From contig NZ_JAIWNA010000010.1 of NCBI RefSeq assembly GCF_020216065.1, forward strand, positions 124,001 through 188,000: a stretch of 64,000 nucleotides of DNA, given 5' to 3'. The DNA is from Nocardia rosealba. GTDB lineage: Bacteria; Actinomycetota; Actinomycetes; Mycobacteriales; Mycobacteriaceae. How positions within the stretch are numbered: the first letter of the stretch is position 1; each line of letters starts with the position of its first letter. The notes beneath the pieces were generated by a model. The model did not search any database, had not been told where the DNA came from, and saw only the letters and a list, made by a program, of their open reading frames with translations. Positions 25,452 through 28,228 of this stretch are shown here, in pieces. A program made the position numbers and the translations under genes.

Positions 25452-25715
25452 TCAGGCGGATTCGGCGATCTGCTCGGCGCGGTAGACCTCGGCCAGCTCG
25501 GCGAGCGGGATCGTGAGTGCTTCGGCGAGGCCGACGATGGTGCCGAATGCGGGGGAGGGCATGCGCCCGGACTCGATCTTGCGCAGGGTTTCGGGAGAGA
25601 TACCTGCCCGCCCGGCGACCTCGTTGAGTTCCCGATCGCCCCGGGCCGTCCGCAACCGCCGACCCAGCCGACGCCCGGCTTCGACCTGGGCGGGACTGAG
25701 CGGAAGACGAACCAT
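25452..25715 (-). CDS. Small XRE-family HTH regulator
   Basis: An 87-residue single-domain Cro/CI-type protein: AGRRLGRRLRTARGDREL, LNEVAGRAGISPETLRKIES (helix-turn-helix), then a short helix to the end. There is no ligand or toxin domain. It lies alone between the MFS gene (convergent) and a strong hairpin. Target unknown. Confidence 0.82.
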   Translation of the reverse strand: MVRLPLSPAQVEAGRRLGRRLRTARGDRELNEVAGRAGISPETLRKIESGRMPSPAFGTIVGLAEALTIPLAELAEVYRAEQIAESA

Positions 25716-25811: not shown

Positions 25812-25874
25812 GATCACCACGCTGTGGTGGCGGCCGCCACTCGGGAAACACCCCGCCACCACAGCGTGGTGATC
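25812..25874. repeat. 22-bp perfect inverted repeat (hairpin)
   Basis: The arms 25812-25833 and 25853-25874 are perfect reverse complements over 22 bp. They begin GATCACCACGCTGTGG, with a 19-base loop. Each arm also contains the palindrome CCAC-GCT-GTGG. It sits 14 bp past the hxlR stop and upstream of the XRE gene, so it may terminate hxlR transcription, but there is no T-run. It could instead be a regulatory or mobile hairpin. Confidence 0.75.
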
Positions 25875-25887
25875 AACTGCCCATGAC

Positions 25888-26247
25888 CTAGCGGGTGGGA
25901 CGCCAGGGGATTCGGCCGTTACCGTCGCCGGTGGGTGTCCATTGTTCGGCCCAGTCCCAGACATGCTGGAGGGACTCGGCCAGGAGGGCGCCCTCGGTGG
26001 TGAGTTCGTAGGCGCCGCGCGGTCCGTTCTTGCGGGTCAGGCCCGCTGACTGCAGTTGCTGGAGGCGGTCGGACAGCATGCTCGACGAGCAATTGCCCAT
26101 CCGGCGGCGCAGGTCGAGGAAGCCGAGGGGGCCGGGCTCGAGTTCCCAGATCACGCGCAGCATCCACCGCTGTCCGAGCAGGTCGATCGCGGCCACGATC
26201 TTCGCGGAGGGTTCTGCGGTCTCGTCACCGCCGGTTGCGCTTCTCAT
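25888..26247 (-). CDS. HxlR-family transcriptional regulator
   Basis: A 119-residue HxlR protein: AIDLLGQRWMLRVIWELEPG, FLDLRRRMGNCSSSMLSDRL, LTRKNGPRGAYELTTEGALL. HxlR regulators often repress divergent oxidoreductases in response to electrophiles or redox stress. It is divergent from an MDR-family oxidoreductase. The candidate operator covers its own start codon, and a near copy lies before the next SDR gene, so it probably controls all three. Confidence 0.88.
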   Translation of the reverse strand: MRSATGGDETAEPSAKIVAAIDLLGQRWMLRVIWELEPGPLGFLDLRRRMGNCSSSMLSDRLQQLQSAGLTRKNGPRGAYELTTEGALLAESLQHVWDWAEQWTPTGDGNGRIPWRPTR

Positions 26248-26290
26248 TCAGAAGCACGATAGCTGGTTCTGGATCAGAAGCATTCGGGCG
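26228..26290. promoter_or_regulatory. HxlR control region, copy A
   Basis: It contains GCTTCT-cattc-AGAAGC and a second TTCTGGATCAGAA half about 25 bp on, with CAGAAGCACGATAG between. It overlaps the hxlR start codon (26245-26247) and lies upstream of the oxidoreductase. A 63-bp stretch, 57 of 63 bases identical, recurs at 27396-27458. Confidence 0.65.
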
Positions 26291-26371
26291 ATCGGACGGG
26301 GTCCTGAATCCGGAATACCTCGGGGAGTTCCCCGATGTGTGCGGGTGGTCGTGACGCCTAGCGTTGTCGAG

Positions 26372-27349
26372 GTGAAGGCAATCGTGCAGCGGGTTTACGG
26401 GTCGTCGGCGATGTTGGCGGTGGCCGATGTCGGGCGCCCGGAAGCGGGGGCGGGGGAGGTGCTGGTTCGGGTTCGTGCGGCGTCGGTGAATGCGCGCGAT
26501 TGGCATGTGATGCGGGGGGATCCGAAGATCGCGCGGTGGATGGATCGGTCGGTGTTCCGTCGCAAGGGGCCGGCGAATCCGGTGCAGGGTGGGGATTTCG
26601 CGGGGACAGTCGAGGCGGTGGGCGACGGGGTCACCGATGTGGCGGTGGGCGACGAGGTGTTCGGGGAGGCGGTCAGCGGTGCGTTCGCGGAGTACCTCGC
26701 GGTGCCGCGCGCTCTCCTCGACCAAAAGCCGAAGAATCTGAGCTTCGAGGAAGCCGCGGCCGTGCCACTGGCCGCCAACACCGCCCTGACCTGCCTGCGT
26801 CACGTCGACGCCGGAAACCGGGTGTTGATCATCGGTGCCTCCGGAGGGGTCGGCACCTTCGCGGTCCAGATCGCCCGGGCCAGGGGTGCCGAGGTCACCG
26901 GGGTGTGCAGCACCCGCAATGTGGAGGCGGCACGGGCACTCGGCGCCGCACATGTCATCGACTACACCCGCGAGACCGTAACCGGCCGCTACGACACCGT
27001 TCTCGACCTGGCGGGCACGCGGGGGCTACGCGAACTCCTTCGCCTGGTCGAACCCACCGGCACCCTCGTCCTGTCCGGCGGCGGAAACTTCGACGGTGGC
27101 AGCTTGTTCGGTCCTGTCGGCTTGCTCGCGCTCGGCCAGCTGGCTCGGCCGTTCGTGAAACCGTCGATCCGCGGCCCGCTGGCTCAGCAGAGTCCCGAGT
27201 CGCTGACAGAACTCCGCGAACAGATCGAGTCGGGTCAGGTACGCCCGGCCATCGACCGGACCTACCCACTCGCCGAGACGCCCGCAGCCATCAGCTACAT
27301 GGAGTCCGAACATGCCAGGGCGAAGATCGTGATCACCGTCGCCGCGTAG
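26372..27349 (+). CDS. NAD(P)-dependent MDR-family oxidoreductase (quinone reductase-like)
   Basis: A 325-residue zinc-free medium-chain dehydrogenase: VRAASVNARDWHVMRG, NPVQGGDFAGTVEAVGDGV, EEAAAVPLAANTALTCLRHV, the NADPH loop IIGASGGVGTFAVQIARARG and GAAHVIDYTRE. Such enzymes reduce quinones or enones. No zinc-binding cysteines are present. The start is GTG 26372, eight bases after a TAGCGT hexamer, possibly leaderless. It is divergent from hxlR across the shared operator, so it is the likely target. Confidence 0.85.
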   Translation: MKAIVQRVYGSSAMLAVADVGRPEAGAGEVLVRVRAASVNARDWHVMRGDPKIARWMDRSVFRRKGPANPVQGGDFAGTVEAVGDGVTDVAVGDEVFGEAVSGAFAEYLAVPRALLDQKPKNLSFEEAAAVPLAANTALTCLRHVDAGNRVLIIGASGGVGTFAVQIARARGAEVTGVCSTRNVEAARALGAAHVIDYTRETVTGRYDTVLDLAGTRGLRELLRLVEPTGTLVLSGGGNFDGGSLFGPVGLLALGQLARPFVKPSIRGPLAQQSPESLTELREQIESGQVRPAIDRTYPLAETPAAISYMESEHARAKIVITVAA

Positions 27350-27395
27350 GTCGAATCACCAGGCGGAGCAGGGTTTTACCGGGCGTCGAGATCGT

Positions 27396-27458
27396 CCGCC
27401 GGTTGCACTTCTGATTCAGAAGCACGATAGTTGCTTCTGAATCAGAAGCATGCGGGCG
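27396..27458. promoter_or_regulatory. HxlR control region, copy B
   Basis: A second copy of the 63-bp hxlR control region. The palindromes are more perfect here: CTTCTGA-T-TCAGAAG (27408-27422) and GCTTCTGA-A-TCAGAAGC (27433-27449). The hxlR start codon is altered to GAT, so only the operator function remains. It is followed by GGAAGGAG and the SDR start. Confidence 0.65.
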
Positions 27459-27469
27459 GAAGGAGCACG

Positions 27470-28228
27470 ATGGTGGAATCGACGGCGCGGCGGGTGGTGC
27501 TGGTGACCGGGGCTTCGCGCGGAATCGGTGCGGAGACGGCGAGACAGTTCGGTGCGATCGGTGCGCACGTGCTCGTGAACTTCCGGGAGAAACGCAAGCG
27601 GGCCGAGACCGTCGTCGGAGAGATCGTGACGACCGGCGGGAGTGCTTCAGCGATCGGCGCGGATGTGTCGGAGTCCGATGAAGTCGCGGCCATGGCGGCC
27701 GAAATCCAGCGCTCTCATGGTCAGCTGGATGTGTTGGTGCTCAATGCTTCCGGCGGTCTCGAGCGTGACGCGGACCCCGGCTACGCGCTGCGCCTCAATC
27801 GGGACGCTCAGGTGGATCTCGCGAAGGCGATGCTGCCCTTGATGCCCTCGGGCGGACGCATCGTGTTCGTCACCAGCCATCAGGCGCACTTCATTCACGA
27901 GAAGCCCGATGTGCCTGCGGGTTACGCACCGATCGCGCGGAGCAAGCGCGCGGGTGAGGATGCCCTGCGCGCGCTGATGCCCGAATTCCGCTCGCGGGGA
28001 GTTGGTTTCACCGTGGTGTCCGGCGACATGATCGACGGCACGATCATCGTCCGGCTGCTGGAACGGCGTGACGCGAGCAGTGTCGCGTCACGCCGTGCGG
28101 CGGGCCCGTTGCCGACTGTCGAGGATTTCGCCGCGGCGATCGTGACCGCGGCCGAGTCCGACGACGCCGACGGGCGGACGGTATATGTCGGCGGCGCGGA
28201 CTATCTCACCTCGAGTGCCGTCGGGTAG
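27470..28228 (+). CDS. SDR-family oxidoreductase
   Basis: A 252-residue short-chain dehydrogenase: VLVTGASRGIGAETARQF (cofactor), DVLVLNASGG, IVFVTSHQAHF and YAPIARSKRAGED. The usual Tyr-x3-Lys is stretched to Tyr...Lys with six residues between, or the lysine lies elsewhere, so catalysis may differ from the textbook. The start was chosen at ATG 27470 behind GGAAGGAG. Control by HxlR through copy B is an inference. Confidence 0.8.
   Translation: MVESTARRVVLVTGASRGIGAETARQFGAIGAHVLVNFREKRKRAETVVGEIVTTGGSASAIGADVSESDEVAAMAAEIQRSHGQLDVLVLNASGGLERDADPGYALRLNRDAQVDLAKAMLPLMPSGGRIVFVTSHQAHFIHEKPDVPAGYAPIARSKRAGEDALRALMPEFRSRGVGFTVVSGDMIDGTIIVRLLERRDASSVASRRAAGPLPTVEDFAAAIVTAAESDDADGRTVYVGGADYLTSSAVG

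Follow-up and report, generated by a model that had tools for sequence, protein, structure and literature searches.

Two copies of one 63-bp segment flank a quinone-oxidoreductase-like gene (labelled QOR here) in Nocardia rosealba, the first lying over the start of a gene for an HxlR-family regulator (hxlR) and the second standing immediately upstream of a gene for an SDR oxidoreductase (SDR). The question raised by this arrangement is which of the two enzyme genes is the old neighbour of hxlR and which the newcomer, and hence how the segment came to be doubled. An earlier, sequence-only reading of the 64,000-nucleotide stretch of DNA analysed here (the window) took the second copy to be the recent capture of a neighbour's operator, by which the SDR had been put under HxlR. 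The analysis described below confirms the observation, but most likely reverses its interpretation: instead of the SDR capturing an operator, an incoming gene would have doubled the one that hxlR and the SDR had in common. The repeat, its distribution, the limits of the insertion and the changes specific to each copy are all read directly from the sequences.

The repeat and its setting

A repeat search of the region returned the two segments as a single ungapped direct-repeat pair of 63 nt, identical at 57 positions (90%) and with a spacing of 1168, exactly as first reported, the runner-up direct repeat in the region being only 35 nt long at 66–71% identity; by blastn the two copies match with 87.8 bits and an E-value of 1.35e-17 (relative to the collected loci). 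Each copy (A on the hxlR side, B on the SDR side; Table 1) contains two 15-bp palindromes of the form CTTCTGA-N-TCAGAAG, with starts 26 bp apart, which depart from the ideal at 1 and 2 positions in copy A and at none in copy B. As had also been claimed, the hxlR start codon lies within copy A whereas copy B has no ATG, the equivalent place reading ATC; what copy B still carries is a dead relic of hxlR codons 1–6 and part of codon 7. About 22 bp separate its end from the start of the SDR.

Table 1 Features of the hxlR-QOR-SDR locus (window coordinates).
Feature	Position	Strand	Basis or remark
hxlR-family regulator gene, 119 aa	25888..26247	-	Pfam HxlR 57.4 bits, cut-off 20.8
Copy A, operator/promoter repeat, hxlR side	26228..26290	.	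57/63 match with copy B
Copy A hxlR-side palindrome, 1 mismatch; includes hxlR start codon 26245-26247	26240..26254	.	
Copy A former SDR-side palindrome, 2 mismatches in 4/4 species	26266..26280	.	
hxlR -10-like hexamer TATCGT, 8 nt 5' of ATG; putative leaderless layout	26256..26261	-	
Former SDR-facing -10-like hexamer of copy A, GATAGT to GATAGC in 4/4 species	26258..26263	+	
GGGCG, likely left junction	26286..26290	.	common to operator flank (27454-27458) and upstream of 3 free-standing QOR genes
Inserted segment	26286..27349	+	DNA 90-92% identical to the aligning free-standing QOR loci in 3 other Nocardia genomes
TCGGGGAGTTCCCCGA, inverted repeat upstream of QOR	26320..26335	.	retained, with changes, in 12 close QOR genes
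TAGCGT, -10-like hexamer 7 nt 5' of QOR GTG; putative promoter, came with QOR	26359..26364	+	
QOR, zinc-binding-dehydrogenase family gene, 325 aa, newcomer	26372..27349	+	Pfam and distribution
Filler, 46 bp, QOR stop to copy B	27350..27395	.	
Copy B, operator/promoter repeat, SDR side	27396..27458	.	57/63 match with copy A
Copy B former hxlR-side palindrome, now perfect; ATG to ATC	27408..27422	.	
Copy B SDR-side palindrome, perfect	27434..27448	.	
SDR-facing -10-like hexamer GATAGT, retained in copy B of 4/4 species	27426..27431	+	
SDR oxidoreductase, 252 aa, ancestral divergent partner of hxlR	27470..28228	+	

Elsewhere in the genome there is no palindrome of this form with 0 mismatches, the only ones being those of copy B. 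Sites with up to 2 mismatches number 7 genome-wide, four of them at this locus, against 5 in a reversed control, and since this is barely above the control the idea of a wider HxlR regulon was rejected. Two further features lie downstream of hxlR: a perfect 22-bp inverted repeat with a 19-nt loop (25812-25874), terminator-like and directly past the hxlR stop codon, and a helix-turn-helix (XRE-like) gene at 25452-25715, which among loci L001-L114 was matched (E≤1e-12) only in the four species that bear the insert.

The hxlR-SDR pair in other genomes

A search of named genomes with HxlR gave 91 relatives, and the best 80 of these were taken as loci; they come from six named genera (Nocardia, Mycolicibacterium, Mycobacterium, Gordonia, Rhodococcus and Williamsia) and one unassigned MAG, with some species repeated. 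An SDR of the same kind is divergent from hxlR in 78 of these 80 best loci, with no QOR between the two genes in 75 and with QOR between them in three, namely those of N. coubleae (L035), N. caishijiensis (L036) and N. ignorata (L037); at the other two (N. rhizosphaerihabitans, L042, and a second N. speluncae locus, L110) no SDR was found. Within the genus, HxlR is matched at E≤1e-20 in 126 of 148 genomes, while the DNA of copy B is matched (E≤1e-3) in 13 of 60 relatives, all 13 being members of the genus and the window genome one of them. The SDR itself belongs to the family NCBIfam NF005868 (PRK07806), scoring 336 bits against a curated cut-off of 162.

Because hxlR and the SDR are divergent so generally, for the most part with no QOR, and because hxlR starts inside a palindrome in 72 of the 80 loci, the SDR is the old neighbour of hxlR and QOR the newcomer. 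On a midpoint-rooted tree of HxlR plus SDR (33 rows, comprising the window and a selection made by the author from the 80 loci, with L051 left out) the window species and its three insert-bearing sisters form one clade with support 100/100, which corresponds to a single change, and this clade is nested in a group of eight rows (99/99), four of which are without the insert. The presence of QOR in the clade is read as a gain.

The opposite order of events would make hxlR and QOR the original pair, the operator being copied to a place before the SDR, which would thus have joined the HxlR regulon. That would fit a doubled operator whose second copy ends so close to the SDR start, but it has to contend with the 75 loci in which hxlR and the SDR are divergent with no QOR, with the absence of an hxlR of this kind from the flanks of QOR in 8 of 12 close genomes and at 29 order-level loci (see below), and with a tree that needs only one change; we give it very little credence. 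Of what the sequence-only reading proposed, then, a true duplication, a plausible operator and a plausible control of the SDR all stand, whereas capture does not, given the divergent arrangement in 78 of the 80 loci. Nor is there support for the SDR having been newly put under HxlR: palindromes between hxlR and the SDR are already present at most loci, and the gene that arrived is QOR.

Finding the copies in genomes that lack the SDR had been named as something that would speak against capture, and N. ignorata goes half way towards this, having both copies together with an SDR truncated at its 5' end, which is a later loss. In this species (L037 / L117, G016) the SDR is without its start and first 105 residues, although both palindromes of copy B are still perfect; directly past copy B the alignment skips from window position 27471 to 27788, so that 316 bp (27472-27787) are missing, whether by deletion or through an assembly error.

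Architecture of the operator

In the 72 loci just mentioned the hxlR start lies within ATGAGAAG, which is half of one palindrome. Codon 2 of hxlR is AGA in 72/72 of these, whereas further downstream AGA makes up 2% of Arg codons, and codon 4 is GCA in 70/72, as against 7% of Ala codons downstream; codon 4 is the fairer measure, since the starts were chosen by a motif that permits AGA or CGA at codon 2. This usage at codons 2 and 4 is best explained if the operator constrains the coding sequence of hxlR.

Between the palindromes, a hexamer of the form TATNNT occurs 8 nt 5' of the hxlR ATG in 69 of the 72 loci that start in the motif, and it is overlapped by a hexamer on the opposite strand, facing the SDR, whose final T is present in 65 of those 69. 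Four loci are without it: those of the three sisters, in their A copies, and that of N. arizonensis, where this conserved -10 base is missing without any insertion. These -10-like hexamers were assigned by eye and by conservation, and the promoters are to that extent putative; a strict sigma-70 scan of 26150-27550 found no promoter.

How far the double palindrome is conserved as a whole depends on how strictly it is defined. Intergenic regions from 74 of the 78 loci (L035-L037 and L051 being dropped on account of length) were scored against a fixed 41-bp double palindrome: 24 of the 74 have 9 mismatches or fewer, the best of 7400 base shuffles having 10, while the 1% shuffle level of 12 mismatches is reached by 50 and missed by 24, it being understood that these shuffles retain base content only and that in a few of the better-scoring regions the pattern is out of register. 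When the spacing is allowed to vary, a partner palindrome with up to 3 mismatches is found 23–29 bp upstream of the start-codon palindrome in 68/72 loci (a plain count, uncontrolled by shuffling), and the best spacing within this allowed range is 25 in 43 of the 72 and 26 in 23. The end base of the SDR-side palindrome is off the ideal in 53 of 72. Among near relatives of the window species, N. sp. AG03 retains just one palindrome and N. neocaledoniensis none.

Palindromes next to hxlR are thus present and widely conserved, and their binding by HxlR is plausible, as is control of the SDR by HxlR. In the literature, the titles and abstract openings among the matches listed contained nothing on an hxlR-SDR unit of this kind; HxlR is mentioned in one Nocardia genome paper (PMC3751702). 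What emerges is a unit conserved in several genera, in which the regulator has its start codon inside the putative operator and a cysteine near the putative recognition helix (see below).

Origin of QOR and the junctions of the insert

The QOR protein matches the Pfam families ADH_N, ADH_zinc_N and ADH_zinc_N_2, but against TIGR02824 (PIG3-type NAD(P)H quinone oxidoreductase) it scores 138.8 bits, under the cut-off of 296.8, and is not a member of that family; the name QOR is therefore to be understood as a label for a quinone-oxidoreductase-like gene of the wider zinc-binding-dehydrogenase family. It is found at E≤1e-140 in 12 of 150 genomes of the genus, and at E≤1e-80 in 26 of 148 genomes of the genus and 48 of 298 of the order, where no match of more than 60% identity comes from outside the genus (298 genomes, E≤1e-80). 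Of the 12 close genomes, four, namely the window genome and its three sisters, have an hxlR of the kind described here in the retrieved flanks of QOR (1.5 kb at most), and the other eight have none there; the retrieved flanks of 29 order-level QOR loci likewise contain none, and of all the QOR loci retrieved besides those of the 12 genomes one, L132, gives a weak hxlR match (34% identity, E 6e-5).

Three free-standing QOR genes (in genomes G075, G038 and G032) have 91–94% protein identity and no common neighbours in the stretches compared. Their DNA (L119, L120 and L121) aligns to window positions 26286-27349 and no further, so defining the limits of the insert. The left edge of this similarity falls inside the pentamer GGGCG, which recurs at the corresponding place in copy B and upstream of all three free-standing genes; the right edge coincides with the QOR stop codon, after which come 46 bp of filler before copy B begins. 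The operator was most likely doubled when QOR entered, because the free-standing QOR genes align over the insert only and the left junction falls in the common GGGCG. An illegitimate mode of joining is suggested by the filler at one side and 5 bp of common sequence at the other, and we infer that the insertion was illegitimate and duplicated its target.

An insert that brought its own HxlR-type operator from a donor with hxlR, operator and QOR, entering by homologous recombination so that the copies are different alleles, would also account for a repeat on either side of it and for the 5–8 differences between A and B copies. The three closest free-standing QOR genes are, however, without any such operator and their similarity to the window ends at the operator edge, while HxlR plus SDR of the clade group with the expected near relatives; on balance this is improbable. 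Still less can be said for regarding the repeat as the footprint of a mobile element, that is, as a 63-bp target-site duplication made by a transposon. Direct repeats derived from the target do flank the insert, but target-site duplications are usually far shorter than 63 bp, no transposase or integrase was matched in Pfam by QOR or by the five overlapping ORFs between the copies, no common terminal sequences are seen at independent QOR loci in alignment, and filler on one side with 5 bp of common sequence on the other points to illegitimate joining; we regard such a footprint as highly unlikely.

As regards the filler, no clear source was found in 12 genomes. With an E-value of 6.7e-4, the best match outside the locus covers 26 bases at 92% identity (window 27383-27408 against G000:C10:701122-701147), and half of these bases belong to copy B; similar matches occur in two sister species, and it may be due to chance. 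A longer hxlR relic within 27350-27395, suspected by eye, was not borne out, the comparison with window hxlR giving p 0.06 on a strict and 0.29 on a loose test; other pairings of filler with hxlR 5' coding sequence gave uncorrected p values from 0.002 to 0.86.

In five other genomes (G114, G128, G046, G127 and G065) QOR stands beside a gene for a LON-substrate-binding-domain protein, with a glyoxalase-family gene near by. At the equivalent place QOR is lacking from the window genome and its three sisters, and also from G061, G058 and G038; this place falls on separate contigs in G032, and no LON gene was found in G075. A move of QOR within the genome from this locus was considered and set aside. 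Since QOR of the insert clade is closer to the copies at other loci (91–94%) than to those at the LON locus (75–87%), transfer from another Nocardia seems likelier.

Proposed order of events and divergence of the copies

Taking these results together, we think it probable that an ancestral hxlR-SDR operator was doubled by the insertion of QOR and that the two copies then diverged. The ancestor would have had a single operator between divergent hxlR and SDR genes, made up of two palindromes flanking overlapping, back-to-back -10-like hexamers, with the hxlR start codon inside one palindrome, a layout that suggests a leaderless hxlR mRNA; HxlR, probably a dimer, most likely represses the two genes by binding to both palindromes. 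QOR together with its own upstream region would then have been inserted by an illegitimate event, marked by GGGCG at one junction and by the filler at the other, in the ancestor that the window species had in common with N. coubleae, N. caishijiensis and N. ignorata, and the operator would have been duplicated in the process, leaving hxlR and the SDR with one copy each. Afterwards the final T of the SDR-facing hexamer would have disappeared from copy A, in which the start and the hexamer of hxlR survived; in copy B it would have been the hexamer of the SDR that survived and the ATG of hxlR that disappeared, and this copy, once freed from coding, would have become a perfect double palindrome. 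In this scheme it is HxlR binding, the promoter positions, repression, the direction of gene flow and the insertion mechanism that we infer.

For the state before insertion, N. salmonicida and N. alba, in which the operator is single (CTTCTCATTCAGAAG-CACGATAGTTG-CTTCTGAATCAGAAG), can serve as reference. By comparison with these, copy A in all four species has kept the hxlR ATG and TATCGT, has GATAGC in place of GATAGT, and has 2 mismatches in its SDR-side palindrome; copy B in all four has kept GATAGT and a perfect SDR-side palindrome, has ATC for ATG, and has gone from 1 mismatch to 0 in the hxlR-side palindrome, while in two of the four the last T of the hexamer in the hxlR direction has also been lost. 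The suggestion that both palindromes of copy B had become more perfect therefore holds in relation to copy A, but in relation to N. salmonicida and N. alba, where the SDR-side palindrome is already perfect, only the hxlR-side one has improved.

Pairwise differences over the 63 positions are 0–4 among A copies, 0–2 among B copies and 5–8 between A and B, giving a grouping by copy and not by species. Since likeness follows the copy across the four species, the duplication is older than their split, and the description of it as recent needs limiting to that extent; the copy-specific changes are common by descent and so amount to few events.

Decay of the second palindrome of copy A was largely dropped as evidence, 2 mismatches being the usual state among single operators. 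Among 72 operators of the single or A type, 2 mismatches is the most common count on the SDR side (31 cases) and a perfect palindrome there is found in just 4, for which reason copy A may yet function as a good operator, and copy B may be an unusually strong one. It can be predicted that HxlR would hold copy B more tightly than copy A and hence that the SDR would be repressed more firmly than hxlR. The value of these loci lies in their forming a before-and-after series for the way in which an inserted gene would split a bidirectional operator, single in N. salmonicida and N. alba and double in the four sister species, and in their indicating which bases are important for each direction.

Duplication, degeneration and complementation of regulatory DNA, otherwise subfunctionalisation, is a known concept. 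The present case resembles it in that a dual-use element has been doubled and each copy has lost a different part of the use, but differs in that a single bidirectional bacterial operator has been split by an inserted gene, with both copies still beside their old genes. Among the literature matches listed, the titles held no bacterial case of a bidirectional operator split in this way.

The regulator and its conserved cysteine

The regulator belongs to the HxlR family (PF01638; for scores see Table 1). Its best sequence match among solved structures is YodB (5hs7, E 1.4e-07), and like YodB and CatR of Bacillus subtilis and QsrR of Staphylococcus aureus it is a small winged-helix protein of the HxlR (MarR/DUF24) type. 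QorR of Corynebacterium glutamicum is also of HxlR/DUF24 type, and its quinone oxidoreductase gene is divergent from that of the regulator. According to PMC6798810, YodB, CatR and QsrR control quinone reductases and related enzymes and sense by means of Cys6, Cys7 and Cys5 respectively, while QorR is described as a one-cysteine regulator of quinone oxidoreductase (PMC11633110) that uses Cys17 (PMC8524982).

Against this background the position of the cysteine in the present protein is unlike that in any of the four. Its single cysteine is residue 53 (GNCSSSML), and the corresponding column has Cys in 80 of 81 HxlR rows and a gap in the other; a cysteine in the first 20 residues, as in YodB, occurs in none of the 81 rows (in 8 of which it was the tblastn match, not the start motif, that fixed the N terminus), and the one conserved cysteine is likewise not of the Cys17 type of QorR. 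No N-terminal cysteine is thus available to support the link to electrophile stress made in the sequence-only reading. Residue 53 stands, in a predicted model (mean pLDDT 73.9, and 86 for this block), directly before helix 55-67, which we take as the recognition helix. Because there is no cysteine at a place like Cys6, Cys7 or Cys17, the protein, for all that it is an HxlR protein, falls by their defining feature outside the YodB- and QorR-type thiol switches; a switch at Cys53 is possible. The comparison with YodB, CatR and QsrR concerns their cysteines; the hxlR described here also has its own start codon embedded in the operator. A further difference, from the QorR system, is that QOR is here a late arrival, the ancestral target being an SDR of the PRK07806 family. 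The fullest statement of the case, in which a bidirectional operator was split by an incoming gene, its daughters subfunctionalised within one small clade, each giving up whichever promoter direction or start codon had become superfluous, and the freed palindrome was perfected, all under an HxlR whose cysteine near the recognition helix acts as a thiol switch unlike that of YodB or QorR, is put forward as a tentative suggestion.

Control of QOR

Whether QOR has itself come under HxlR is a separate matter. A three-gene HxlR module would result if operator A repressed QOR as well as hxlR. In favour of this, the operator precedes the QOR start by about 90 bp, the two genes are divergent, the palindromes of copy A are as good as those of most single operators, and QorR of C. 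glutamicum is reported to regulate a quinone oxidoreductase (PMC11633110). We nonetheless think this doubtful, given that the QOR-facing -10-like hexamer of copy A is changed in all four species and that QOR has an upstream element found at its other loci. Since this inverted repeat and a -10-like hexamer are retained at other QOR loci, QOR is probably read from its own promoter, with at most an indirect influence of HxlR from operator A.

The inverted repeat, TCGGGGA..TCCC(C/T)GA, is found at 26320-26335 and at the same place in L116-L126, retained with changes at different genomic sites, and is followed by a TANNGT hexamer a few bases 5' of the GTG. It would appear to be QOR's own control element, perhaps the site of another regulator. 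More distant relatives of QOR, belonging to another family, have palindromes of other kinds: two GTGTACGGCGTACAC-like ones, some of them changed, stand before the start in L150, L153-L156, L158-L166 and L168-L170, and are presumably the operator of a different regulator, while in L144, L147, L151 and L157 the palindromes are of the CTTACGNCGTAAG type.
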